Shown: positions 5,189 through 64,000 of the stretch, in pieces
Layout: every line of letters begins with the position of its first letter
Position numbering within the stretch: position 1 is the first letter of the stretch
Source of the DNA: Streptomyces sp. OR43
Lineage (GTDB): Bacteria > Actinomycetota > Actinomycetes > Streptomycetales > Streptomycetaceae
DNA: 64,000 bases
Assembly: GCF_008042275.1 (NCBI RefSeq)
Contig: NZ_RDBK01000043.1
Span: forward strand, 4,202,818 to 4,266,817
Reading direction: 5' to 3'
Notes under the pieces: model-generated
What the model saw: the letters and a program-made list of their open reading frames with translations, nothing else
Told to the model about the DNA's origin: nothing
Databases searched by the model: none
Position numbers and translations under genes: made by a program

Positions 5189-6949
5189 TCAGTCGTCGGC
5201 GAGCACCACGCACGACTCCGGCGGCAGATGCAGGGCCCCGTCAGGGCCCGGCGCGTCCACGGGCAGCCAGGCGGCCAGTACCCGGCCTCCGCCACCGCGG
5301 TGCCGGCCGCCGCCCAGCGGGATCGTGGCCGGCTTCTCGTCGAGGTTGACGGCGATCCGCAGATCGCCCCGGCGGAACGCCAGCCAGCGGGCGTCGTCGT
5401 CGTACGCCGTCTTCACCGTCGCCAGATCGGGGTCGCTGAGATCGGGCAGGGAGTGGCGCAGCGCGATCAGTTCGCGGTACCAGGCGTGCAGGCGGGCGTG
5501 CGGCTCGCGCCGCGGCTCGCTCCAGTCCAGACACGACCGGTCCCGGGTGGCGGGGTCCTGCGGGTCCGGGATGTCCTCCTCGGCCCAGCCGTGCGCCCCG
5601 AACTCCCGCCGCCTGCCGGTGCGTACGGCCTCGGCGAGCTCCGGATCGGTGTGGTCCGTGAAGAACTGCCAGGGCGTACGGGCGCCCCACTCCTCGCCCA
5701 TGAACAGCATCGGAGTGAAGGGGCCGGTGAGCACGAGCGCCGCCGCGCAGGCCAGCAGGCCGGGGGAGAGGGAGGCGGCGAGCCGGTCGCCGAGCGCCCG
5801 GTTGCCGATCTGGTCATGGGTCTGGGCGTAGCCGACGAAGCGGTGGGCGGCGCTGCGCGTGACGTCGACGGGGCGGCCGTGCGTACGGCCGCGGAAGGTG
5901 GAGTACGTGCCGTCGTGGAAGAAGGCGCTCGTCACGGTCTTGGCGAGCCCGGCCAGCGGGGCGGCGGCGAAGTCCGCGTAGTAGCCCTGGGCCTCACCGG
6001 TCAGCGCGGTGTGCAGACAGTGGTGGAAGTCGTCGTTCCACTGGGCGTGCAGACCGAGACCGCCGGACTCGCGCGGAGTCGTCGTCCGCGGGTCGCAGAG
6101 GTCGGACTCGGCGATGAGGGAGAGCGGACGGCCCAGTTCCGCCGAGAGCGCGTCGGTGGAGGTGGACAGCTCTTCCAGGAACGTCAGCGCCCGTGTGTCG
6201 GCCAGCGCGTGCACCGCGTCGAGCCGGAGCCCGTCGAGCCGGTAGTCGCGCAGCCAGGCGAGCGCGCTGCCCAGCAGGAAGGCCCGCACCTCGTCGGAGC
6301 CCGGCGCGTCCAGATTGACCGCCGCGCCCCAGGGGGTGTGGTGCGTCTCGGTGAAGTACGGGCCGAAGGCGGGGAGGTAGTTGCCGGACGGGCCCAGATG
6401 GTTGTGGACCACGTCCAGGACGACCGCGAGCCCGAGCCCGTGCGCCGTGTCGACAAAGCGCTTCAGTCCTTGGGGGCCGCCGTACGGCTCGTGCACGGCC
6501 CACAGCGAAACGCCCTCGTACCCCCAGCCGTGGACCCCGGGGAACGGGCAGACCGGCATCAGCGACACATGGGTGATGCCCAGCTCGGCGAGATGTTCCA
6601 GCCGGGCCGCCGCCGCGTCGAACGTGCCCTCGCCGGTGTACGTACCGATGTGCAGCTCGTACAGGACCGCGCCCGGCAGCCCGCGGCCCGCCCAGTCGGT
6701 GCGCCAGGTGTACGCGTCATGGTCGACGACGGCACTCTCGCCGTCGGGTCCGTCCGGCTGGCGGCGCGAGCGGGGATCGGGGCGCACCGGGCCGCCGTCC
6801 AGGGCGAATCCGTAGCGGTCGCCGTCCCTCGCCTCCGCGTCCGCGGTCCACCAGCCGGCCCGGTCCGGATCACGCTCCATGGTCCGCAGCTCACCCGACA
6901 GCCGCAGGGCGGCCACATCCGCGTCCGGTGCCCATACCTCGAACAACAT
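5189..6949 (-). CDS. treZ: malto-oligosyltrehalose trehalohydrolase
   Basis: A 586-residue GH13 enzyme that releases trehalose from maltooligosyl-trehalose, the second step of the TreY-TreZ route from glycogen or maltodextrin. The N-terminal domain begins MLFEVWAPDADVAAL. The catalytic Asp is about D244 in DGLRLDAVHALAD and the acid/base Glu about E281 in SLIAESDLCDP; VVLDVVHNHLGPSGNYL is also typical of TreZ. The ATG at 6949 is preceded by GAGGGAG, so I did not use the upstream in-frame start. treY, its partner, lies 3.3 kb away on the same strand, so the pair is not one tight operon here. Confidence 0.93.
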   Translation of the reverse strand: MLFEVWAPDADVAALRLSGELRTMERDPDRAGWWTADAEARDGDRYGFALDGGPVRPDPRSRRQPDGPDGESAVVDHDAYTWRTDWAGRGLPGAVLYELHIGTYTGEGTFDAAAARLEHLAELGITHVSLMPVCPFPGVHGWGYEGVSLWAVHEPYGGPQGLKRFVDTAHGLGLAVVLDVVHNHLGPSGNYLPAFGPYFTETHHTPWGAAVNLDAPGSDEVRAFLLGSALAWLRDYRLDGLRLDAVHALADTRALTFLEELSTSTDALSAELGRPLSLIAESDLCDPRTTTPRESGGLGLHAQWNDDFHHCLHTALTGEAQGYYADFAAAPLAGLAKTVTSAFFHDGTYSTFRGRTHGRPVDVTRSAAHRFVGYAQTHDQIGNRALGDRLAASLSPGLLACAAALVLTGPFTPMLFMGEEWGARTPWQFFTDHTDPELAEAVRTGRRREFGAHGWAEEDIPDPQDPATRDRSCLDWSEPRREPHARLHAWYRELIALRHSLPDLSDPDLATVKTAYDDDARWLAFRRGDLRIAVNLDEKPATIPLGGGRHRGGGGRVLAAWLPVDAPGPDGALHLPPESCVVLADD

Positions 6950-48665: not shown

Positions 48666-50132
48666 TCAGCGCTTCGCCGGCACGCGCGCGCCGGCCGCCG
48701 GCGCCGGTGCCACGTCCGCCAGGTGGTCCCGTTCCGCGTCCGGGTCCGTCAGCCGGTTCAGCCGCGCCGGTACGTCGAAGCCCACCAGCAGCACCACGAT
48801 CAACGTGCCCGCGAACGTCAGCACCGCCAGCGCCTGCCCCAGGTCCATCCCGGAGGCGAGATGCGCCCCGAGGACCGGGGCGACCGCCCCGCCGAGGGCG
48901 CCCACGTTGTACGTGAAGCCGAGTGCCGCGCCCCGGCTCGCGGTCGGGAAGTGGCCGCCGATGTAGCGGGGGAGCAGCCCGGAGATGCCGAAGCTCGTCG
49001 CCTGGAGCAGGAAGAGCAGGATGCCGAGCAGCATCAGGTTGTCCCGTACCGCGAAGACCGGATAGACGAAGGCGAGTGAGGCCAGCAGCGTCAGCGCGTA
49101 CGCCTTCTTCGTGCCGATCCAGTCGCCCAGGAAGCCCGCGACCCAGCAGCCGGCCATCGTGCCGAAGCCGGCGAAGTACAGGACGTCGGTGACCTGCTCC
49201 GTGGTGTAGCCCAGCTCGGTCTTCAGATACGTGGGCAGCAGGGCCTGGATGGGCCACGAGTACAGGAACGCGAAGAACAGCGTCACGATCATCGACAGGT
49301 ACAGCACCCAGCCGCGCTTCCCGCCCAGCTGCACCGCGAAGGCGGCGAGCGAGAGTCCGGCGATCACGGAGAGCACCGGCACCATCCCGGCCCCGCCCGG
49401 GGTGAAGACGAGGAACAGCGAGACCGTGGCGAGGACGACCAGGACCGTGTTGGCGGTGGCCCGGGCCCGGGTGAGAAACAGCGGCCGGAACGGATGGGGC
49501 TTCGCGCCCTTGTCCGCGACGGACTCCGTCCACTCCTCGGCTTCCGGCAGCGCGCGCCGCATCCACAGCGCGATGGCGATCGGGATGAGGCCCAGGTAGA
49601 ACATCCAGCGCCAGCCGAGTGAGGGGACCACCCAGTCGTAGACCTGGGCGGCGAGCACCGAGCCGACCGAGAAGCCGGAGATCAGGAAGCCGCTGGCCCG
49701 GTTGCGCAGGGCGGCGGGCCAGCTCTCCATGACGTACGTGGAACTGGCGCTGTACTCACCGGCCATGCCCATGCCGATGGCCAGCCGGGCGGCGAACAGA
49801 CTGGTGTAGTTCCAGGCGAACCCGCAGGCGAAGGTACCCACCGAGTACAGCAGGATGCTGAGCACCATGGAGAGCTTGCGGCCGTAGCGGTCGCCGATGG
49901 CGCCGAGCACGGCGCCGCCCAGCCAGCGGGTGATGAACGCACCGGAGATCAGGCTGGCCGCCTGCACCGTGCTCAGGCCGAACTCGTCACTGATCTCGGT
50001 CAGGACGAGGGTGATCAGCACGAAGTCGAAGCCGTCGAGGACATAGCCGATCCAGGCGGCGAAGAACGACTTCCACTGGGTGCGGCTGACCTGGCGGTAC
50101 CAGGGGAGCGTGGGGGGTGACGAGGTCTGCAC
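48666..50132 (-). CDS. nanT: MFS transporter, sialic acid transporter (NanT) type
   Basis: A 488-residue membrane carrier with about twelve hydrophobic segments. Motifs of the sugar/sialate-type MFS are DGFDFVLITLVLTEISDEFG in helix 1, GAIGDRYGRKLSMV between helices 2 and 3, and RLAIGMGMAGEYSASSTYVMESWPAALRNRASG. This last stretch is close to NanT/ShiA-like proton symporters. The last gene of the nan operon lies downstream of nanE and is separated from it by 64 bases. The substrate is inferred from the operon: N-acetylneuraminate. The GTG at 50132 is preceded by GGAG. Confidence 0.85.
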   Translation of the reverse strand: MQTSSPPTLPWYRQVSRTQWKSFFAAWIGYVLDGFDFVLITLVLTEISDEFGLSTVQAASLISGAFITRWLGGAVLGAIGDRYGRKLSMVLSILLYSVGTFACGFAWNYTSLFAARLAIGMGMAGEYSASSTYVMESWPAALRNRASGFLISGFSVGSVLAAQVYDWVVPSLGWRWMFYLGLIPIAIALWMRRALPEAEEWTESVADKGAKPHPFRPLFLTRARATANTVLVVLATVSLFLVFTPGGAGMVPVLSVIAGLSLAAFAVQLGGKRGWVLYLSMIVTLFFAFLYSWPIQALLPTYLKTELGYTTEQVTDVLYFAGFGTMAGCWVAGFLGDWIGTKKAYALTLLASLAFVYPVFAVRDNLMLLGILLFLLQATSFGISGLLPRYIGGHFPTASRGAALGFTYNVGALGGAVAPVLGAHLASGMDLGQALAVLTFAGTLIVVLLVGFDVPARLNRLTDPDAERDHLADVAPAPAAGARVPAKR

Positions 50133-50196: not shown

Positions 50197-50877
50197 TCAG
50201 GGCCGGGTGATGCCTGCCACGAAGCGGGCGGTCAGAGCCGTGGGAGCGGTGATGGCGGTGCCGACGACGACGCTGTGGGCGCCGCGTGCCAGGGCCTCGG
50301 CCGCTTCCTCGGGGGTGTTGATACGGCCTTCGGCGACCACCGGTACGTCGATGGCGGCGGAGAGCGCCGCGACCAGTTCGAGGTCCGGGCCGGTCTGCTT
50401 CGGCGTTCCGGGGACGTAGCCGGACAGGGTGGTGGAGACGAAGTCCGCACCGAGCGAGGCCGCCGTAACGCCCTCGGCGAGGGTCGAGACGTCGGCCATG
50501 ACCAGAGCGCCGGCCGCGTGGACCGCCTCGACGAGCTCGGCGAACGTCGAGCCGTCGGGGCGCGGCCGGTCGGTGGCGTCGGCGGCCACCACGGCCGCGC
50601 CCGCCTCGGCGACGGCCAGGGCGTGCCGGACGGTCGGGGTGATGAAGACGCCGACGTCGCCGTCCTTCCACAGACCGATGACCGGCAGGTCGACGACGGC
50701 GGTGATCGCGGCCACGACCTCCGGATCGTTCGCCCGGATCGCGGAGCCGCCACCGGCGACGGCCGACAGCGCCATCCGCACCAGCGTGGACGTCTCCCGC
50801 ATCGGGTCCCCGGGGGGTGCCTGGCAGGACACGATCAGCTTGCCCCGGAGGGTGGTGGCCAGTTCCTGCGCGGTCAT
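50197..50877 (-). CDS. nanE: N-acetylmannosamine-6-phosphate 2-epimerase
   Basis: A 226-residue TIM-barrel epimerase that turns ManNAc-6-P into GlcNAc-6-P. It shows LRGKLIVSCQAPPGDPM, the catalytic Lys71 in VIGLWKDGDVGVFITPT, VAADATDRPRPDG and the Glu in PVVAEGRINTPEEAAEAL, followed by GAHSVVVGTAITAP. These are strong NanE markers. The ATG overlaps the nanK stop (ATGA). Confidence 0.95.
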   Translation of the reverse strand: MTAQELATTLRGKLIVSCQAPPGDPMRETSTLVRMALSAVAGGGSAIRANDPEVVAAITAVVDLPVIGLWKDGDVGVFITPTVRHALAVAEAGAAVVAADATDRPRPDGSTFAELVEAVHAAGALVMADVSTLAEGVTAASLGADFVSTTLSGYVPGTPKQTGPDLELVAALSAAIDVPVVAEGRINTPEEAAEALARGAHSVVVGTAITAPTALTARFVAGITRP

Positions 50878-51839
50878 CGGAGAGCTCCCGGGTGGTGGAG
50901 GGGAAGGGTGGTGGTGAGGGAGGCCGCGCCGAGCACGGCCGCGTCGTGGCCGAGCAGCGGGGCCTGCGGGACGAGCCTGCGCAGCGGCCCCATCAGCTCC
51001 GCTGCGAACGCGGCGCGCAGGGCGTCCTCGTAGAGCGCGCCGATCCGTGGGACCCCGCCGCCGATCACGACCCGGTCGGGGCCGAACGCGTTGGCGAGCC
51101 CGCCGAGGACATGGCCGGCGGCGGCCGCACCGGTGGTGATGGCGGTGACGGCGTGGGCGTCGCCCCGCGCGGCGCGCGCGGCGACGGTTTCCAGACGGTC
51201 CACGGGGGCGCCGTTCAGCCGTGCGTAGTGGGCGGCGATCCCGGGCCCGGAGGCGATGACCTCCAGATGGCCGGTGGCACCGCAGGTGCAGGGCAGCCCG
51301 GCCGCCTCGGGGCTGGGCAGGTGGCCGACGTGCCCGGCGATGCCGGCCGCGCCGTGCAGCATCCGGCCGTCCACGGCGATGGCGCCGCCGACCCCGGTGC
51401 CGATGGCGGCGAAGAGCAGCGAGCCGTGGCCCTCCGTCTCCGCGTTCAGCGCGGCGAGTTCCGGCCCGGCGGTGGCGCGCACGTCGTTGTCGCAGGCCAC
51501 CGCGTAGCCGGTGCGGTTGGCGAGCCCGACGCCCAGCGGGGTGCCCGCCCAGCCGCGCAGCGAGTCGGTGGCGCTGGTGACCATGCCGGTACGGGGGTCG
51601 ATGACGCCGGCCGCCGCGATGCCGAGCATCGCGGCGCTGTGGCCGGGGTCGACTTCGGCGGCGGCCGCGGCGAGCGCGTCGAGCACCGCCGCGGCGCCTT
51701 CCCGTGCCGGGGTGGGCCTGCTGTGCCGGGCCAGGACCGTGCCGTCCGCCCCGAGGAGCGCGGCGGCGATCTTCGTACCGCCGAGGTCGAGGCCGACGAC
51801 GGGCCCCGCGGCCGGTGCCGGCCGTGCCGAGGCGGTCAT
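50874..51839 (-). CDS. nanK: ROK family N-acetylmannosamine kinase
   Basis: A 321-residue sugar kinase phosphorylating ManNAc. The ATP loop is VVGLDLGGTKIAAALLG, the sugar site is GVGLANRTGYAVACDNDVRA, and the ROK zinc site begins GHVGHLPSPEAA. The zinc motif C-x-C-G-x-x-G-C-x-E reads CTCGATGHLE here, so the third Cys is His. The ATG at 51839 overlaps the nanA stop; the open frame upstream belongs to other frames. The gene order nanA-nanK-nanE follows the pathway. Confidence 0.92.
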   Translation of the reverse strand: MTASARPAPAAGPVVGLDLGGTKIAAALLGADGTVLARHSRPTPAREGAAAVLDALAAAAAEVDPGHSAAMLGIAAAGVIDPRTGMVTSATDSLRGWAGTPLGVGLANRTGYAVACDNDVRATAGPELAALNAETEGHGSLLFAAIGTGVGGAIAVDGRMLHGAAGIAGHVGHLPSPEAAGLPCTCGATGHLEVIASGPGIAAHYARLNGAPVDRLETVAARAARGDAHAVTAITTGAAAAGHVLGGLANAFGPDRVVIGGGVPRIGALYEDALRAAFAAELMGPLRRLVPQAPLLGHDAAVLGAASLTTTLPLHHPGALR

Positions 51840-52795
51840 CGGACCGGCGGCAGACCGGCGTCGCGCAGCCGTCCGGAGACGAGCGCGACGGATTCGGCGG
51901 ACAGCTGGATCTGCGGGAACGCGGTGTCGCCGCACTCGATGATGCCGAGCAGCTGGAGCGCCGACTTGAACGAGCCGAGCGCCGAGGAGCTGCGGCCCAT
52001 GTCCGCCTCGGGGCCGACGTCGACCATGGCGAACAGTTCGATCAGCCGCTCCTGCTCCTTGGCGGCCAGCGTCCAGTCGCCCGCCCGCGCGGCCTCGTAG
52101 AGCCGTACGTAACCGGCCGGGTCCACGTTGCCGATGCCGGGGACGACACCGTCGGCGCCGGCGAGCAGGGCCGCGTCGACGGTCAGTTCGGAGCCGGTGA
52201 GGATGCTGAAGTCCGGGACCGGGCCGTCTCCCCGGCCCTCGCGGCCGCCGAGCTCGACGATGAGACGGCGCAGTCCGCCCTCGTCACCGCTGCTGTCCTT
52301 GAGCCCGGCCAGGGTGCCGTCCTCGGCGAGTTCGCGGACCAGGGCGGCGGACAGCTTGCTGTGCACGGCGACCGGGATGTCGTACGCGAACAGCGGCAGG
52401 TCCACTTCGGCGCGCAGCCGGCGGAAGTGCCCGGCGATCTCCTTGGCGTGGGTGCGGGTGTAGAACGGTGCGGTCGCGACCAGCGCGTCGGCGCCCAGGG
52501 CGGCGGCGGACTTGGCATGCTCGACGACCCGGGCCGTGGTGGTGTCGATGACTCCGGCGAGGACGGGGACGCGGCCGTCGGTCGCGTTGACGACGGTCTC
52601 CAGGACCGTGGCGCGCTGTTCGTCGGTGAGGTAGGCGACCTCGCTGGTGGACCCGAGTGCGAAGAGTCCGTGCACGCCCCCGCCGATGAGGTGCTCGACG
52701 AGGCGGACGAGCGACGTGGTGTCGATCTCCCCGCGGGAGTCGAGCGGAGTGCAGACCGGGGGGACGACGCCGCGCAACGGTGCGGTCAGAGACAT
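51836..52795 (-). CDS. nanA: N-acetylneuraminate lyase (DapA/NanA family)
   Basis: A 319-residue class I aldolase of the dihydrodipicolinate synthase/sialic acid lyase superfamily. The Schiff-base Lys is K166 in LAGLKDSSGD, the Tyr is Y138 in FAYDIPVAV, and the carboxylate-binding motif is GSTSE (48-52), near the G-S-T-G-E of sialate lyases. It should split Neu5Ac to ManNAc and pyruvate. By sequence alone a 2-keto-3-deoxy sugar acid aldolase is possible, but nanE and nanK decide the call. It is the first gene of the operon, with promoter and operator just upstream. Confidence 0.88.
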   Translation of the reverse strand: MSLTAPLRGVVPPVCTPLDSRGEIDTTSLVRLVEHLIGGGVHGLFALGSTSEVAYLTDEQRATVLETVVNATDGRVPVLAGVIDTTTARVVEHAKSAAALGADALVATAPFYTRTHAKEIAGHFRRLRAEVDLPLFAYDIPVAVHSKLSAALVRELAEDGTLAGLKDSSGDEGGLRRLIVELGGREGRGDGPVPDFSILTGSELTVDAALLAGADGVVPGIGNVDPAGYVRLYEAARAGDWTLAAKEQERLIELFAMVDVGPEADMGRSSSALGSFKSALQLLGIIECGDTAFPQIQLSAESVALVSGRLRDAGLPPVR

Positions 52796-52859: not shown

Positions 52860-52881
52860 AGACGTAAGATGTCCTATGTCT
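52860..52881. promoter_or_regulatory. operator A of the sialic-acid regulon (nanA side)
   Basis: AGACGTAAGATGTCCT (52860-52875) plus ATGTCT forms a 22-base imperfect palindrome with 8 of 11 pairs matching. The 16-base block is matched at 15 of 16 places by the site at 61528. It starts 8 bases after the nanA -10 element on the transcribed side, covering the likely transcription start, so bound repressor would block the promoter. Confidence 0.78.
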
Positions 52882-52944: not shown

Positions 52945-53640
52945 GTGGCGCGGCCCACCATGGCTCAGGACATCGAGCGCCGGATCAAGGAACTGATCCT
53001 GGAAAGACGGCTCGCGCCGGGCGACGCACTGCCCACGGAGTCCGAACTGATGGACCTCTTCGAGGCCGGCCGGGTGTCGGTGCGCGAGGCCCTCAAGTCG
53101 CTCCAGGCGGTCAACGTCGTGGAGATCCGCCGGGGTTACGGCACCTTCGTCGGCTCGCTCTCCCTGTCACCGTTCGCCGAGGCGCTCGCCTTCCGCGCGG
53201 CCGTCCGCCACCGCCAGGGCGAGCCGGGGCTCGCCGAGCTGATGAAGGTGCGCGAGGCGCTGGAGGCCGGGCTCGTCGGCACCGTCGCGGCCGGCGTCCC
53301 GGACGATGACCTCGACGTCCTGCGCGCCCTGGTCGCGAAGATGGAGGAGGAGGCGGGCGCGGGCCGGGTGGCGCGCTCCACCGACCGGGCGTTCCATCTC
53401 GCGCTCTACGCCTCGCTGGACAACCACCTGCTCAGCGAGGTGCTCGACGCGTTCTGGGCGGCCATGGACCGGGTTCGCGAGGACTTCGACGACGGTCACC
53501 AGGACCCGTCGGTCACCTGCACCCAGCACCGCGAGATCGTCGAGGCGGTCGCCGCGGCGGACGGTCTGCGGGCGGTACGGGCGATGCGTACGCACTTCGA
53601 CGGCATCCGCGACCGCCTGGAACCGGCCCCGGTCCGCTGA
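52945..53640 (+). CDS. FadR/GntR family regulator of the nan operon
   Basis: A 231-residue regulator. The winged helix spans about 8-72 (IKELILERRLAPGDALPTES, GRVSVREALKSLQAVNVVEI, RRGYGTFVGSLS). The C-terminal FCD domain has the usual metal ligands: Asp and His in TDRAFHLAL, His in QHREIVEAV and His in MRTHFDGI. It is divergent from nanA with operator A between them, so it is a likely NanR-type repressor whose ligand would be a sialic acid or ManNAc-6-P. CAGGAGG stands before the GTG start. Confidence 0.92.
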   Translation: MARPTMAQDIERRIKELILERRLAPGDALPTESELMDLFEAGRVSVREALKSLQAVNVVEIRRGYGTFVGSLSLSPFAEALAFRAAVRHRQGEPGLAELMKVREALEAGLVGTVAAGVPDDDLDVLRALVAKMEEEAGAGRVARSTDRAFHLALYASLDNHLLSEVLDAFWAAMDRVREDFDDGHQDPSVTCTQHREIVEAVAAADGLRAVRAMRTHFDGIRDRLEPAPVR

Positions 53641-57641: not shown

Positions 57642-59078
57642 CTACGGAGTGACCGTCACCGTCGTGCTGCCGGATGCCTGCTTGCCGTCCGCCCGGTACG
57701 TGGCGGTCAGTGTGGCGTTCCCCGAAGCGCCCGCCGGCACGGTGACCGGGACCTTGACGTTGGCGCCCTCACCCGGACGCGTCGCCGGGATCGCGGTCCG
57801 TGTGGCCGTCCAGCCGCTCGGCACGGTCAGATCGACGGTGCCCGCGCTGCGGGTCACGTCCATCCGGTTGACGACCCGGACCGTCACCTCGGTGCTCGTC
57901 CCGGCCTTGAGCGCCGCCGGCGGGGTGATCGTGATGTCGGCGCAGGTGCCGCCGAGCCACTTCAGGTCGAAGGAGGAGTACGTGATGTGCTCGTAGTTGC
58001 CCCGTTCGTACAGCAGTCCGAGCCGCCCGTCGGGCAGCCGGGTCAGCGTCGAGTAGGCCGCGGCCCCCGCGTCGACGACCTTCTTGATCGGCCAGGACTT
58101 CCCGTTGTCGCAGGACATCTTGACCGTGAGGTTCTTGCGCGACGTGGCCTCGGTGTTGCTGAACAACAGCCAGGACGACTGCGGGTTCGAGGCCGGGGCG
58201 TCGGGGGCGTACCGCATGATCGAGCCGTTGTTCGCCGGGTCGGGGAGCTCGGTGTCCTGGACGAACGGGGTGTAGGTGACCCCGCCGTCCTTGGAGTACG
58301 CGATCGTCCGGTAGGGCGCCGAGCGGTTGTTGAGCATGATCGTGCCGTCGTTGAGCTCGACGGTCTTGTTCTCGTCGCCGCCGGGCCCGACGGGCGTGCC
58401 CATCTTCCAGGTCGCGCCGTGGTCGTCGCTGTACGCGCTGACCGCGTAGTTGGCCCCGTTGTTGCGAATGGCGTACTGCTGGACCAGTCGGCCCTTGTGG
58501 GCCCCGTTGCGCAGCTGGATGCCCTCGCCGGACGAGGCGAACATGCCGCCCCACGCCGGGTTCTTGATCTGCTGGGTGATGCGGCGGTGGGTCCAGGTCA
58601 GACCGTCGTCGTCCGAGTAGCTGTAGTCGGCCTGCAGGACGTTCGGGTCGCTCTCGTCGTTGCCGGTGGCCGAGCCGAAGAAGCCCTGGTTCACCCCGGC
58701 CGCGTAGAACATGAAGATCCGGCCGGTGGTCCGGTCGACGAGCAGGCTCGGGTCCCCGTATCCCTGGGGCGCGGCGTCCTTGCGGACCACCTGCTGCGCC
58801 TGCCAGGTCGTACCGCCGTCGGTGCTGCGCCGCAGTACGACGCCGATGTTGGACGGCAGGTCGCCGAGGGTCGGGCGGGCGTCGTACGCCGCCAGCACGG
58901 TGCCCTTGACCGAGGTGGTCAAGGCCGGGATCCGGTAGTAGGGGGAGCCCACGCCGTTGACGGTCAGGTCCTGGGAGGTGAGCGTGCCGGGGGCGGGTGA
59001 CGCGGCCTGGGCGGTACCGGTCGTGGTGGCCACCAGGAGGGCGGCACCGAGCAGGGCGACAGGAACGGTTCTCTTCAT
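57642..59078 (-). CDS. secreted exo-alpha-sialidase
   Basis: A 478-residue secreted enzyme. Residues 1-26 are a signal peptide (MKRTVPVALLGAALLVATTT, ending TAQA). The beta-propeller carries the F/Y-R-I-P motif (YYRIP, Arg49 as a carboxylate-binding Arg) and five Asp-box-like repeats: STDGGTTW, SDDDGLTW, SDDHGATW, SKDGGVTY and SCDNGKSW. The end of the propeller, LGLLYERGNYEHITYSSFDL, fits the nucleophile Tyr region. Residues about 385-478 form an Ig-like NPCBM-associated domain. It releases terminal sialic acid from glycoconjugates. It is the last gene of the operon that begins with the CE7 esterase. Confidence 0.94.
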   Translation of the reverse strand: MKRTVPVALLGAALLVATTTGTAQAASPAPGTLTSQDLTVNGVGSPYYRIPALTTSVKGTVLAAYDARPTLGDLPSNIGVVLRRSTDGGTTWQAQQVVRKDAAPQGYGDPSLLVDRTTGRIFMFYAAGVNQGFFGSATGNDESDPNVLQADYSYSDDDGLTWTHRRITQQIKNPAWGGMFASSGEGIQLRNGAHKGRLVQQYAIRNNGANYAVSAYSDDHGATWKMGTPVGPGGDENKTVELNDGTIMLNNRSAPYRTIAYSKDGGVTYTPFVQDTELPDPANNGSIMRYAPDAPASNPQSSWLLFSNTEATSRKNLTVKMSCDNGKSWPIKKVVDAGAAAYSTLTRLPDGRLGLLYERGNYEHITYSSFDLKWLGGTCADITITPPAALKAGTSTEVTVRVVNRMDVTRSAGTVDLTVPSGWTATRTAIPATRPGEGANVKVPVTVPAGASGNATLTATYRADGKQASGSTTVTVTP

Positions 59079-59143: not shown

Positions 59144-60442
59144 CTACGGGACGTTCAGGGAGCAGACCGCGCTGCTCGCGTCGAAGATCCGCAGATCCTT
59201 GATCATCTTGAGCGCGATGCGGTGGTGGCCCCGTTCGTTGGGGTGGAGCCCGTCGCTGAGCAGGGACAGGGGGACCTGGCCGCCGTTGCCGCTCAGCCAG
59301 TCGTTGTAGTGGTCGACGAAGGCGGCCTTCTCCTGCGCCGCGACCTCGCCCATGACCCGCGCGTACTGCGAGAGGTTCACCCGGCCCGGCCACTTCGCCG
59401 GATCCACCGGGTTGGGCGACTGGAGCACCGGCACGGGGGAGCCGGGCAGAGCGCGTACGGAGCGAACGAGCGAGACGAGGTTGGCCCGGTAGGCGTCGAG
59501 GCCCAGTCCGGACGTCGCGATGTCGTTCGTGCCGATCATGATCGAGACGACGTGCGGCGAGAAGGTGGTGACCCGCTCCCCGAACTGCGCCACGAGTTCG
59601 GCGCTGGTCGCGCCGCTCACCCCGGAATCGACCATGAAATCGCGGTTCTTCGGCTTGCCCAGCTCCCAGCGCACCCGCTCCATCCAGTGCTCCGGGTAGC
59701 TGCGCCAGCCATGGGTGTGCAGCGCCCCGTGGGTGATGCTGTCGCCGGTGACGACCCAGGTGGCCGGGGTGTTGCCGTTGAGGATCGTGGAGATCCGGCC
59801 CAGGTCGGCGAGATCGGGGCGGGGGCTCTGCGCGACCAGTTCGGACTCGCTCAGCACCCGGTCCCAGACGGCGGCCCGCTCGATGGTGCCGGTACAGAAC
59901 CACTCGCCGCCGGGGTGGTCGCTGTCGGTGTTGCGCCCCAGCGCGAGGGCGCTCAACCGGGAGACGTTCCCGAAGAAGGAGTGCTGCGCCGTCTCGAACA
60001 CGGTGCGCCCGCCCGCGGACAGCCTGGTGCCCGACCCGTCGACGGTGACGGCGACGGTGTGGCGCAGCCCGTCGTCGTACCGTGTCCTGGTCATGACATT
60101 AATAAGGACCGCGCCCTTCTCGCGCACGGAGAACTGAAGGGCGCCGCCGCTCAGGTTCAGCGTGATGTTCGAGGAGGGAGCGGTGGGATCCGAGGCGCTG
60201 AGCAGCGTCATCGCCTGGTTGTGGCTGGTGGTGCGGAAGGTGACGACGATGGTTCCCGTGGTGAGCGGGGTGAGTGCGCCGACCTGGTTCGACAGATCGA
60301 CGTACCCGCTGCCGTCCAGGTCCACCGGGGTGTCGTGGTCCAGGACCGGGCCGCTGCCCGGGGTGGCGGCGAAGGCGCGGCCACCGAGCTGGGTGCTCAG
60401 GACTGCCGCGCCTGCGGCGAAAAGCATGGATCGTCTGCGCAC
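59144..60442 (-). CDS. CBM40-like domain fused to SGNH esterase
   Basis: A 432-residue secreted protein. The N-terminus MRRRSMLFAAGAAVLSTQLG, ending AFA at about 25, is Tat-like. Residues about 33-205 resemble the sialidase lectin-like domain (CBM40): VGALTPLTTGTIVVTFRTTS, LRHTVAVTVDG and TGTIERAAVWDRVLSESEL. Residues 225-432 form an SGNH hydrolase: S235 in TGDSITHG, Gly in DSGVSGAT, N306 in IGTNDIA, and D397 with H400 in SDGLHPNERGH. It lies between a CE7 esterase gene and the sialidase gene, so it is probably a sialate O-acetylesterase that binds sialoglycans (inference). The gap to the sialidase gene is 65 bases. Confidence 0.85.
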   Translation of the reverse strand: MRRRSMLFAAGAAVLSTQLGGRAFAATPGSGPVLDHDTPVDLDGSGYVDLSNQVGALTPLTTGTIVVTFRTTSHNQAMTLLSASDPTAPSSNITLNLSGGALQFSVREKGAVLINVMTRTRYDDGLRHTVAVTVDGSGTRLSAGGRTVFETAQHSFFGNVSRLSALALGRNTDSDHPGGEWFCTGTIERAAVWDRVLSESELVAQSPRPDLADLGRISTILNGNTPATWVVTGDSITHGALHTHGWRSYPEHWMERVRWELGKPKNRDFMVDSGVSGATSAELVAQFGERVTTFSPHVVSIMIGTNDIATSGLGLDAYRANLVSLVRSVRALPGSPVPVLQSPNPVDPAKWPGRVNLSQYARVMGEVAAQEKAAFVDHYNDWLSGNGGQVPLSLLSDGLHPNERGHHRIALKMIKDLRIFDASSAVCSLNVP

Positions 60443-60457: not shown

Positions 60458-61459
60458 TCAGGAGTGGCCGGCCTGCCCCGACGGCAGGCCTGCGAACAGT
60501 GAGGCCACCCAGGCCAGTTGCTCCCGCTGCTGGTACTCGGCGCCGCCTTCGTGCCCGTTGAACGCGTAGACCGTCACGTCCTTGGGTCCGGCGTAGCCGT
60601 TGTAGGCGGTGAAGCAGGTGGAAGGCGGGCAGATGTCGTCCATCATCGCGATGGAGAACAGTGCGGGGGCCGTGGCCCGGGTGGCGAGCAGTGCGGCGTC
60701 GAAGTACGACAGGGTGGCGAAGACCGACTCGGTCCGGTCGCGGTGGAGCTTGAGGTATTCGGCGATCTCGGTGAACGGCGGCCGCCCGGAGACCTCGGCC
60801 CCACGGCGGAAGTTGCAGAGGAACGGCACGTCCGGCATCACCCCCGCCAGCCCGGGCACGAGCCCCGAGACGGCCAGCGCGATCCCGCCGCCCTGGCTGA
60901 CTCCGGTCACCACGATCCGCTCCGGATCGATCTCCGGCCGGTCGCGCACCGCGTCGACGCAGCGCACCGCGTCGGTGAACAGCCGCCGGTAGTAGTACGT
61001 TTCGGGGCTCTCGATGCCCCGGGTGAGGAAGCCGGGTACGACTCCGGCCGCGCCGCCGTCCGGATCGGCGGTGTCGCCGCCCGCGGCCGACCAGCCCTGG
61101 CCGCGGGTGTCCATCAGCAGATGCGCGTAACCGGCCGACGCCCAGAGCAGGTTCTCGTGTGCCAGGCCCCGTCCGCGGCCGTACCCCAGGAACTCCACGA
61201 CGCAGCCGAGCGGTTCGCTCGCCCCGGCCGGCACCCGCAGCCAGCCGCGCACCGGCTGCCCGGCGAAGCCGGGGACCGTCACGTCGTATGTACGGACCTG
61301 GGTGAGCCCGGTGTCCACCGCCGTGAACGAGGGCTTGTCCGCCGCACAGGACCGGGCCTCGTCCAGGGTCCGCGACCAGAAGGCGTCGAAGTCCGCCGGA
61401 ACGGGAAGCGTGGGCCGGTAGTCGCGGCAGTCCGCGAGCGAGAGGTCCGTGAACGGCAT
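60458..61459 (-). CDS. acetylxylan esterase/cephalosporin-C deacetylase family (CE7) esterase
   Basis: A 333-residue alpha/beta hydrolase of the CE7 type. The nucleophile is S188 in VVTGVSQGGGIAL, the Asp is D274 or D275 in AMMDDICPPS, and His303 is in FNGHEGGAEYQ; the R-G-Q-G-W motif is MDTRGQGWS. CE7 enzymes remove acetyl groups from short sugars and antibiotics, usually in the cytoplasm; no signal peptide is seen. Here it leads the sialidase operon and may deacetylate imported O-acetyl sugars. AGGAGGG stands 8 bases before the ATG at 61459; the ATG at 61519 lacks one. Confidence 0.91.
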   Translation of the reverse strand: MPFTDLSLADCRDYRPTLPVPADFDAFWSRTLDEARSCAADKPSFTAVDTGLTQVRTYDVTVPGFAGQPVRGWLRVPAGASEPLGCVVEFLGYGRGRGLAHENLLWASAGYAHLLMDTRGQGWSAAGGDTADPDGGAAGVVPGFLTRGIESPETYYYRRLFTDAVRCVDAVRDRPEIDPERIVVTGVSQGGGIALAVSGLVPGLAGVMPDVPFLCNFRRGAEVSGRPPFTEIAEYLKLHRDRTESVFATLSYFDAALLATRATAPALFSIAMMDDICPPSTCFTAYNGYAGPKDVTVYAFNGHEGGAEYQQREQLAWVASLFAGLPSGQAGHS

Positions 61460-61521
61460 GGAGGTGCCCTCCTGGGGGCGCAGCGGGAAGTGCCGGGTGC
61501 GAGGGGGTGCACCGGCCATCA

Positions 61522-61546
61522 GACAGAAGACGTCAGATGTCCTGTC
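61522..61546. promoter_or_regulatory. operator B of the sialic-acid regulon (esterase-sialidase side)
   Basis: AGACGTCAGATGTCCT (61528-61543) differs from operator A at one of 16 bases. Outer GACAG (61522-61526) and CTGTC (61542-61546) add symmetry. It lies just downstream of the -10 element of the esterase operon promoter and 63 bases before the start codon. Confidence 0.78.
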
Positions 61547-61657: not shown

Positions 61658-62377
61658 TCAGCCCCGGGCGCGGGCCTCGGAGATCCGGCGCCTGACCGGG
61701 GCGTAGTGCTCGCCGAGCGCCTTGATGAACCCGTCGATGTCGCCGGCCCGGGCGGCGTCCACGATGGCCTGGTGGGCGGCGATCGTCTCCGTCTCGTCGC
61801 TGTGCGTGAAGCCGTCCAGGTGCGGTGCGACGATCGCGTACACGTCCCAGAAGGCCATCGACAGCTGGCCGATCAGATCGTTGTCGAGCGGCGCCACGAG
61901 CAGGGCGTGGAAGGCGCGGTCGGCGGCGACGAAGCCGTGCCCGTCCTGGGCCCCGGTCGCCCGCATCGTGGCCACCAGGCCGTCCAGGGCGTCCAGCTGT
62001 TCCGCGGTGAGCAGCGAGACGATCCGGTCGGCCCGCCCGCGCTCGAAGAGCTCGCGCACGTCGACCAGGTCGGACATCACCTGGAAGTCGTCGTCGGGCG
62101 AGAGCAGCCCGCGGAAGGTGAGGCTCTCCACCAGGGCGGACAGGCTCAGCCGGCCGACGTAGGTGCCGTGTCCGTGCCTGACCTCCACGATGTCCAGCGC
62201 GTTGAGGATCTTGACGGCCTCGCGGACGCTGGAGCGGCTGGCGCCGAGCGCCTCGCAGAGGGCGGGCTCCGTGGGCAGCGGGTCTCCGGGACGAAGTCTC
62301 TTCTCGAGGATGTACCGCTTGATGCCGTCGACGACTTCCTGCCGGAGCAGCTGTCGCCCGGGCCTCGTTCCGGACAT
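61658..62377 (-). CDS. FadR/GntR family regulator, second of the sialic-acid locus
   Basis: A 239-residue regulator. The winged helix is about 12-75 (VDGIKRYILEKRLRPGDPLP, ALGASRSSVREAVKILNALD, VRHGHGTYVGRLS). The FCD domain has Asp and His in ADRAFHALL, His in AHQAIVDAA and His in LGEHYAPV. It resembles the regulator at 52945 in layout and in the GTYVGRLSLS/GTFVGSLSLS hinge. It is divergent from the binding-protein gene at 62548 with operator C between. GGGGAG stands before the ATG at 62377. Confidence 0.91.
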   Translation of the reverse strand: MSGTRPGRQLLRQEVVDGIKRYILEKRLRPGDPLPTEPALCEALGASRSSVREAVKILNALDIVEVRHGHGTYVGRLSLSALVESLTFRGLLSPDDDFQVMSDLVDVRELFERGRADRIVSLLTAEQLDALDGLVATMRATGAQDGHGFVAADRAFHALLVAPLDNDLIGQLSMAFWDVYAIVAPHLDGFTHSDETETIAAHQAIVDAARAGDIDGFIKALGEHYAPVRRRISEARARG

Positions 62378-62409
62378 ATGTGAACTCCCCACCTCTTGAC
62401 CCCCATCGA

Positions 62410-62437
62410 TTGTCAAGCTACGTTCCCACGCTATCAA
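62410..62437 (+). promoter_or_regulatory. promoter of the solute-binding protein operon
   Basis: TTGTCA (62410-62415), a 16-base spacer and TATCAA (62432-62437) form a sigma-70-like promoter. Operator C starts two bases after the -10 element and covers the likely transcription start. Confidence 0.66.
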
Positions 62438-62438
62438 G

Positions 62439-62463
62439 GCATCAGACATCTGACGTCTGATGC
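62439..62463. promoter_or_regulatory. operator C of the sialic-acid regulon
   Basis: A 25-base palindrome in which 11 of 12 pairs match: arms GCATCAGACATC (62439-62450) and GACGTCTGATGC (62452-62463) around a central T. Its reverse strand contains AGACGTCAGATGTCT, the same core as operators A and B. It lies between the second FadR-type gene and the binding-protein gene. Confidence 0.8.
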
Positions 62464-62547: not shown

Positions 62548-64000
62548 GTGCCCGAGCTGAGATCAGCCGGTGTCGAGCGCCGCACCTTCCTGCGTTACAC
62601 CAGTGCCGTCGGTGCCGCGGCCGCCCTCACGGCGGGCCTTTCCGCGTGCGGAGGCCCGTCCTCGACCTCCGACGGCTCGACGGGCGGGGGCGGCGACACC
62701 GGTCTCATCGAGGCCGGTATGTCCTACCCGCTGTCGACGGGCTTCGACCCGATGATCACGTCGGGTGCGACGCCGTACGCCGCCAATATGCACATCTTCG
62801 AGGGTCTGGTGGATCTCGATCCGGCAACACTCGTGGCACGGCCCGCGCTCGCCACCGAGATGCCGAAGAAGATCAACGCGACCACCTACCGCGCCACGCT
62901 GCGCAAGGGCGCGACCTTCCACGACGGCTCGGCCGTCACCGCCGACGACGTCGTGTTCAGCTTCGAACGCATCCTGGACCCGAAGAACGCCTCGCTGATG
63001 GCACAGTTCGTGCCCTTCATCGACACCGTCAAGGCCGTCGACGCCGGCACGGTCGAGTTCAAGCTCAAGTACCCCTTCGCGCTCTTCCCGTCCCGCATCG
63101 CCGTGGCCCGGATCGTGCCGAAGAAGATCGTCGAGGCGGACGTCAAGGCGTTCGACGCCAAGCCCGTCGGCTCGGGGCCGTACAAGTTCATCTCGGCGAC
63201 CCGCGAGGACAAGATCGTCTTCGAGAAGTACGAGAAGTACAACGGCGCCCACCCCGCCAAGGCCAAGAAGATGATCTGGCGCCTCATATCCGACCAGTCG
63301 GCCCGGGTCAGCGCCATGCAGTCCGGCCGCGTCCAGGCCATCGAGGACGTCCCCTACATCGACGTGAAGGGGCTCTCCGGCTCGGCGAAGACCGAGTCCG
63401 TGCAGTCCTTCGGCCTGCTCTTCCTGATGTTCAACACCGCCGACAAGCGGTTCGCCGACAAGCGGGTCCGTCAGGCCCTGCACTACGCGCTCGACACCGA
63501 GAAGATCATCAAGACCGCCATGGTCGGCAACGCCGCGGCCGCCACGGGCTACGTCCCCACGACGCACCCGGACTACCACAAGGCCGCCACCGTCTACACG
63601 CACGACGTGGCCAAGGCGAAGAAGCTGCTCGCCGAGGCCGGGGTGAAGGACCTCAAGTTCACCGTCCTGACCACCGACACCGGCTGGGTCAAGGACATCG
63701 CCCCGCTGATCAAGGAGAGCTGGGCCGCGGCCGGCATCGAGGCCACCCTCGGCATCGCCCAGTCCGCCGCCCAGTACGCCAAGGTCGACAGCGGTGACTT
63801 CGAGGTACTCGTCGCCCCCGGCGACCCCTCCGTCTTCGGCAACGACGTGGACCTGCTGATGCGCTGGTTCTACTACGGCTTCTGGCCGGAGAACCGCTAC
63901 GGCTGGTCCAAGACCGCCGAGTACAAGAAGGTCAAGCAGCTCCTCGACAAGGCCGCCCAGTCCGGCGACGAGGCGACCCGCAAGCAGCTGTGGGGCCAGA
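62548..64000 (+). CDS. family-5 ABC substrate-binding lipoprotein, SatA-like (3' end outside window)
   Basis: The visible 484 residues start at GTG 62548 after GGAGG. The signal combines a twin-Arg-like [20 protein letters not shown] with the lipobox LSAC (Cys34). The mature part is an SBP_bac_5 protein (DdpA/OppA class): [36 protein letters not shown] and [21 protein letters not shown]. Such proteins bind peptides, but sialic-acid ABC transporters of the SatABCD/SiaEFGI type use the same family. The regulon operator before it points to sialic acid. The permease and ATPase genes should follow to the right of the window. Confidence 0.9.

Follow-up and report, generated by a model that had tools for sequence, protein, structure and literature searches.

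A predicted SatA-type sialic acid binding lipoprotein encoded beside a nan cluster and a NanT-like symporter gene in Streptomyces sp. OR43

The stretch of DNA analysed here, hereafter the window, comprises 64,000 nucleotides of the genome of Streptomyces sp. OR43 (G000:C79:4202818-4266817), and its contig extends further to the right. At the right edge lies satA, a reading frame that opens with a GTG codon at 62548 and meets no stop before the window ends; its stop falls at the equivalent of window position 64143 on the genome contig (L006 566-2161), giving a full product of 531 amino acids. To its left lie genes for two regulators, two esterases, a sialidase, a lyase, a kinase, an epimerase and an MFS transporter (Table 1). 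The true start of GntR2 is probably at 62377 because its longest open reading frame overlaps an operator, and the sialidase likely begins at MKRTVPVALLG. The names given to the lyase, the kinase and GntR2 lean on their neighbourhood because NCBIfam cut-offs are unmet and the lyase is nearer to DapA: NanA scored 133.7 bits against the DapA model (cut-off 206.15) and 104.5 and 95.8 bits against two N-acetylneuraminate lyase models (cut-offs 281 and 382), while GntR2 scored 95.5 bits against the NanR model (cut-off 260). The AXE1-family protein is, from its place, a candidate sialate O-acetylesterase. The nearest named locus is that of S. poriferorum, in which SatA is 97% identical and the NanA and GntR2 matches are 100% identical.

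Table 1. Genes and operator sites in the window, to its right and elsewhere in related loci (positions are those of the window unless a locus is named)
Feature	Position	Strand	Remarks
nanT, MFS sialate:H+ symporter	48666..50132	-	NF003024 667 bits, cut-off 604
nanE, N-acetylmannosamine-6-phosphate epimerase	50197..50877	-	269.8 bits, cut-off 189
nanK, ROK-family kinase	50874..51935	-	no NCBIfam cut-off reached; listed ORF start overlaps nanA
nanA, DHDPS-family N-acetylneuraminate lyase candidate	51836..52795	-	no NCBIfam equivalog cut-off reached
Operator AGACGTAAGATGTCC, between nanA and GntR1	52860..52874	+	
GntR1, second FCD-type GntR regulator	52945..53640	+	39% identical to GntR2
BNR-repeat sialidase with NEW3 domain	57642..59078	-	listed ORF from 59903
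GDSL esterase with laminin-G-like domain	59144..60442	-	Pfam
AXE1-family acetyl esterase	60458..61519	-	Pfam 345.7 bits
Operator AGACGTCAGATGTCC, upstream of AXE1 esterase gene	61528..61542	+	
GntR2, FCD-type GntR regulator	61658..62449	-	divergent from satA
Operator AGACATCTGACGTCT, between satA and GntR2	62444..62458	.	palindromic
satA, family-5 solute-binding lipoprotein	62548..64000	+	484/531 residues inside window
satB, permease	L006 2368-3318		right of satA
satC, 657-aa permease-ATPase fusion	L006 3320-5293		permease + ABC ATPase domains (Pfam)
satD, ATPase	L006 from 5290		GTG start; overlaps end of fusion gene
DUF4862 gene	L110:5084-6031 (G000:C53:17086-18030)		exact operator 23 bases before start codon
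Other DUF4862 loci	L114; L115; L190; L192:8937-9836		

SatA had been described in an earlier note on this DNA as a family-5 binding protein, and its sequence bears this out, with 277 bits against Pfam SBP_bac_5 (cut-off 32.4). By eye, the N-terminus resembles a twin-arginine lipoprotein signal, for which the Pfam TAT_signal model gave 19.7 bits, below its cut-off of 22.7. Compared with all chains in the PDB, SatA matched best to 5za4, 5z99 and 5yyb (618-619 bits), and its next solved relative, the agropinic acid binder AgaA, scored 157 bits. The titles of the three entries, as returned by Foldseek, are those of the Haemophilus ducreyi sialic acid binding protein, in one entry with Neu5Ac and in one with Neu5Gc. 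SatA is identical to H. ducreyi SatA at 285 of 477 aligned residues (60%). A Foldseek search with an AlphaFold model of SatA also placed the three H. ducreyi entries on top, but adds little to the sequence result because the model is poor (pLDDT 61.9, pTM 0.57). We conclude with high confidence that the satA product is the predicted lipid-anchored binding component of a SatABCD (ST3) importer of Neu5Ac.

Permeases and ATPases were to be expected to the right of satA if this assignment is right, and a permease, a permease-ATPase fusion and an ATPase do follow it on the contig. The last of these, SatD, shows 43% identity to the ATPase domain of the fusion and 90-96% to the SatD of relatives. By homology, satA and the three following genes are a full importer set, a SatABCD (ST3) operon. 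Among the 80 named loci fetched around SatA, kept from 252 relatives and including none from Corynebacterium, SatB, SatC and SatD matches were found in 80, 80 and 78, respectively. The end of satD is less regular. Similarity to relatives (G178) stops within the last ~16 codons (L006 about 6090-6250), satD contains one N, and the gene that follows encodes a PP2C protein. Most GntR1-containing relatives have another nanA-like gene after satD; in the OR43 genome this gene lies on contig C52 (L202, G000:C52:21097-22026; 93% to that of G178), where similarity starts at the point at which the satD similarity ends. The break is either a real rearrangement or an assembly error. About 3-8 kb past satD (L006:9584-14756) there is, by eye, a putative hydroxyproline catabolic cluster with FAD oxidases, a DapA-family protein and a 4-hydroxyproline epimerase.

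The same note held that satA is preceded by a regulon operator. A palindrome does lie before the gene, with longer arms (GCATCAGAC and GTCTGATGC) that extend over 62439-62463, and it is conserved in relatives. The three window sites define a 15-bp pattern, AGACRTMWGAYGTCY, which at up to two mismatches matched 11 times in the window against a mean of 1.79 in shuffled sequence, with 0 of 100 shuffles reaching as high a count. Conservation in relatives serves as the independent test. Allowing one mismatch, 28 of the 30 relatives fetched have a site in the 220 bases upstream of satA; of the other two, G021 has a site in a 290-base gap and G197 (81% complete) has none. Of the 59 named loci in the Streptomyces group (58 with Streptomyces titles and one [Kitasatospora] papulosa, a set overlapping with the 30 relatives), 58 have a site within 350 bases upstream. 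The other 21 named loci yielded one-mismatch sites in Planomonospora and Streptomyces sp. SID3343 and, at this level, none in 19. All 25 loci with an AXE1 match have the operator upstream of that gene (up to one mismatch). For nanA, 16 of 25 loci have a site no more than 300 bases away, and the nine that lack one are those without a GntR1 match. Over 539,344 bases of these loci, a reversed-pattern control matched nowhere. We infer that GntR1 or GntR2 binds this motif.

Exact matches to the pattern number four in the OR43 genome, namely the three window sites and one before a gene of the DUF4862 family. A one-mismatch site at C79:2426895, also present in G178, G154 and G165, was rejected as an operator; by eye it stands just before a ribosomal protein L5-like gene, which would explain its conservation. 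Two further places carry two overlapping one-mismatch sites each. One (C1:92197-92218) precedes a pair of Gfo/Idh/MocA oxidoreductase genes (L111:6222-8358), a possible NanOx/NanY that, among solved structures, matches 1,5-anhydrofructose reductase and inositol dehydrogenase best. The other (L112:6083-6104) lies ~24 bases upstream of a gene on the minus strand (L112:4067-6058) whose product appears by eye to be a secreted beta-helix protein with a ricin-type lectin domain; G178 has a double site like it (C1:1016519-1016540).

The distribution of these genes was assessed in 295 genomes of the genus, sampled evenly from a larger group. SatA was detected at an identity of at least 78% in 31 genomes, after which there is a gap down to 45%. 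NanE (at least 75%) was present in 30 of these 31 genomes versus 5 of the 264 others, an association whose Fisher P of 1e-34 is overstated because the genomes are related. Synteny is conserved in two types of gene order: one comprises satABC(D), GntR2, esterase, sialidase, nanA, nanK and nanE without NanT, while the other has the extra GntR1 and mostly also NanT. NanT (at least 76%) occurs in 19 of the 31 SatA genomes, in 15 of which the start positions of the two genes are 6.4-13.9 kb apart on one contig. As NanT lies within 14 kb of satA and scores above its family cut-off (667 bits versus 604 for NF003024), the locus with its SatABCD operon holds two import routes at the gene level, as had been proposed.

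Only one of the two may be a working route for Neu5Ac, with NanT carrying another substrate, such as 2,7-anhydro-Neu5Ac, or serving other conditions. 2,7-anhydro-Neu5Ac is the substrate of E. coli NanX. SatABCD alone suffices in relatives, as 11 of the 31 SatA genomes have NanE and lack NanT at 76% or above. NanT-like MFS proteins of 52-72% identity were found in 30 genomes, only two of which have NanE (at least 75%), and three more genomes (G085, G258 and G262) have NanT at 76-80% with no SatA and with NanE at only 59-61%. The rarity of a close NanE in those genomes indicates that the NanT family at large does not always go with this pathway, and the 52-72% group may have another role. NanT is, moreover, below the cut-off of TIGR00891 (428 of 552.9 bits), a model with the same description as NF003024. 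However, it exceeds the cut-off of NF003024 itself for sialate:H+ symport, nanT comes after nanA, nanK and nanE in the window, and four genomes (G023, G052, G148 and G160) have NanT and NanE without SatA. On balance, a single working Neu5Ac route seems to us unlikely, though it deserves serious consideration, and two routes for Neu5Ac is the reading that we prefer. S. olivaceus (L172; 21.6 kb) and S. albidoflavus (L165) have orthologous SatABCD-nan clusters, and the loci fetched from them contain no NanT. Free-living S. olivaceus strains are described, in the available portion of PMC8749437, as using sialic acid as sole carbon source; the L172 strain may be a different one.

A phylogeny against SatA and OppA had been suggested as a check on the binding protein. 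In a maximum-likelihood tree of 49 rows, a branch with support of 100/99 united 23 SatA rows, namely those of the window, H. ducreyi and 21 named loci (Streptomyces, Planomonospora, Micrococcaceae, Sporosarcina and Pasteurellaceae). Outside this branch fell E. coli DppA, OppA, NikA and GsiB together with 18 paralogs from the OR43 genome. SatA is thus joined with its H. ducreyi counterpart, apart from the peptide and nickel binders. The program warned of many long outgroup branches, among which joins may be false; the SatA branch is unaffected. The paralogs derive from 27 family matches in the genome, one being satA itself: 19 frames were taken and own_L066, a 981-aa frame, was dropped, while L064 and L068-L073, mostly partial matches, were left out.

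The pocket of H. ducreyi SatA is characterised by a His-Ser pair and a single Arg, and the protein has an affinity for Neu5Ac of 133 nM, according to the accessible text of PMC10017367. In the portion of PMC11364026 available, His333 is given as the only residue able to neutralise the carboxylate of the ligand. Five histidines are common to the window SatA and H. ducreyi SatA, of which only that of a THPDY motif gives a plausible numbering offset; from this offset, His340 of the window SatA would correspond to His333. The THPDY histidine is present in 22 of the 23 SatA rows, being missing in Sporosarcina, and is replaced by Asn in all four rows of a sister clade. This clade, from the same genus, is 38-45% identical to SatA and has changed motifs in the pocket region (STGF and a second motif are altered). 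At E 1e-60, 84 genomes of the genus have a sister-clade protein as their sole match, and two more have one as a second copy. The four loci fetched (L104, L105, L106 and L109) all contain matches to SatB, SatC and a GntR1-like regulator, and three of them contain SatD and a NanA-like lyase (58-65% to NanA), the fourth stretch being short. No site for the sialic acid operator was found in the four fetched loci. The sister clade may import a related sugar acid. In L105 a gene beyond the regulator resembles, by eye, a GH42 beta-galactosidase.

These observations bear on whether SatA could be part of a SatA-like importer for another form of sialic acid or another nonulosonic acid. The changed motifs of the sister clade, which has a NanA-like gene next to it in three of the four loci fetched, imply that the wider SatA family may switch ligands, and the esterase genes of the window hint at O-acetylated forms of sialic acid. 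The window SatA, however, belongs to the H. ducreyi clade and not to the sister clade, H. ducreyi SatA complexes with both Neu5Ac and Neu5Gc have been solved, and the two proteins agree at 47 compared positions, which were picked for that agreement and are informative only on differences of other rows. An importer for such a different ligand is very improbable. That SatA is instead a binder of peptides, nickel or opines and an accidental neighbour of the nan genes can practically be dismissed, for although it has the general family-5 fold and GsiB, NikA and DppA models are among its NCBIfam matches, its scores are far below their cut-offs (150 of 594, 130 of 393 and 119 of 1005 bits, respectively), the tree and the PDB scores clearly set it apart from such proteins, and it is linked to nan genes throughout the genus.

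Our preferred reading, SatA as the binding component of a Neu5Ac importer, suggests the following sequence of events. A secreted sialidase would release sialic acid, from which the esterases may remove O-acetyl groups. The free sugar would be picked up outside the membrane by SatA and passed to the permease components (SatB and one half of SatC), with transport powered by the ATPase components (SatD and the other half of SatC), while NanT would provide a parallel, proton-driven route. NanA, NanK and NanE would then break down the sialic acid. The GntR-FCD regulators would act on one shared operator and presumably leave it in response to sialic acid or to a product of its early breakdown. Sequence shows the protein family, the operon, the conservation of the operator motif and the linkage, whereas the ligand of SatA, transport, the substrate of the esterases and a division of labour between a high-affinity Sat system and a lower-affinity NanT are our inference.

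The fourth exact operator raises the possibility of a further member of the regulon. The DUF4862 gene that it precedes is on a contig other than that of the nan cluster. At E 1e-40, DUF4862 was detected in 3 of the 295 genomes of the genus (the OR43 genome, G154 and G178), all with SatA and NanT, and in all three the operator is situated 23 bases before the start codon and away from nan. Two of the 80 named loci, those of Arthrobacter sp. AK04 and Pseudarthrobacter oxydans, have a match of 39% identity upstream of satA in the opposite orientation. A reading of the P. oxydans ORFs showed the gene as the divergent neighbour of satA, adjoining a sialidase. It is possible that the linkage in these two arose in one event because the organisms are related. 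A fold search with a modest model (pLDDT 68.8, pTM 0.75) identified L-rhamnose isomerase and other xylose-isomerase-like barrels, at E values from about 1e-7. Among 396 genomes of a phylum sample, only that of OR43 has DUF4862 above the Pfam cut-off; the E. coli control genome also has the family, and DUF4862 is consequently no universal marker of sialic acid use. The family is not named in the open-access literature searched. We tentatively suggest, at somewhat below even odds, that DUF4862 is an unrecognised step in sialic acid metabolism, for example an isomerase or epimerase acting on a form of sialic acid or in the ManNAc branch, in an organism that would take up the sugar through two importers with different energy sources.

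The importer system is already known, and the window satA is a new member of it. Actinobacterial nan clusters were surveyed by Li and Huang (2022, PMC8754123), and what follows refers to the part of that survey available to us. ST3 transporters are found in most of its actinobacterial nan clusters and ST1 in 18 species, and four Actinomycetales have ST3 together with an MFS transporter of undetermined family. Of 255 cases, 88.24% (225) have an ABC transporter, 22 an MFS transporter, 9 an SSS transporter and 3 none. These counts sum to 259, which equals 255 plus those four and leaves no ST1-plus-ST3 cluster; NanT of the ST1 type and ST3 in one locus are not described in that part of the survey. 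The survey assigned sialic acid transport to whichever transporter genes were nearest, and a double importer would be missed because only the nearest transporter was recorded. Several sialic acid transporters in one species are, however, already known, as in S. pneumoniae with SAT 2/3 and a symporter (PMC2693436, Table 1 as available). In C. glutamicum, SiaEFGI, an alternative satABCD, is essential for growth on Neu5Ac according to the part of PMC13188862 available. Neither the frequency of the double importer in this lineage nor the DUF4862 link was found described in the open-access literature.

Our results suggest that double import through an ABC transporter (SatABCD) and an MFS transporter (NanT) encoded in one locus is common in one lineage of Streptomyces. 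If both routes work, soil bacteria would have high-affinity uptake of a sugar that is mostly considered in the context of pathogens and gut microbes, and the lineage would be a system in which to test why two importers are retained by one cell. More members of the regulon are suggested by the shared operator, among them DUF4862 as a testable candidate new enzyme.

The closest known system is SatABCD (ST3) of H. ducreyi, an organism whose lipooligosaccharide is sialylated (PMC11364026, available portion). Its binding protein (5z99, 5yyb and 5za4) is 60% identical to the window SatA and belongs to the same clade, and the Pasteurellaceae loci have homologous SatB, SatC and SatD matches beside SatA, as here. 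By contrast with the H. ducreyi SatABCD, the importer here belongs to a complete catabolic cluster that includes a sialidase, esterases, a pair of GntR regulators and a further importer; among the 80 named loci, the five from Pasteurellaceae gave no match to any nan gene. The window also resembles the actinobacterial ST3 nan clusters of PMC8754123, which, in the part of that source available, combine an SBP_bac_5 transporter with nanA, nanK and nanE and in nearly all Actinomycetia include a COG2186 (FadR/GntR) regulator. The window MFS protein, which passes the sialate:H+ symport cut-off, is comparable to E. coli NanT (ST1) but differs in that its gene shares a locus with an ABC importer presumably for the same sugar.
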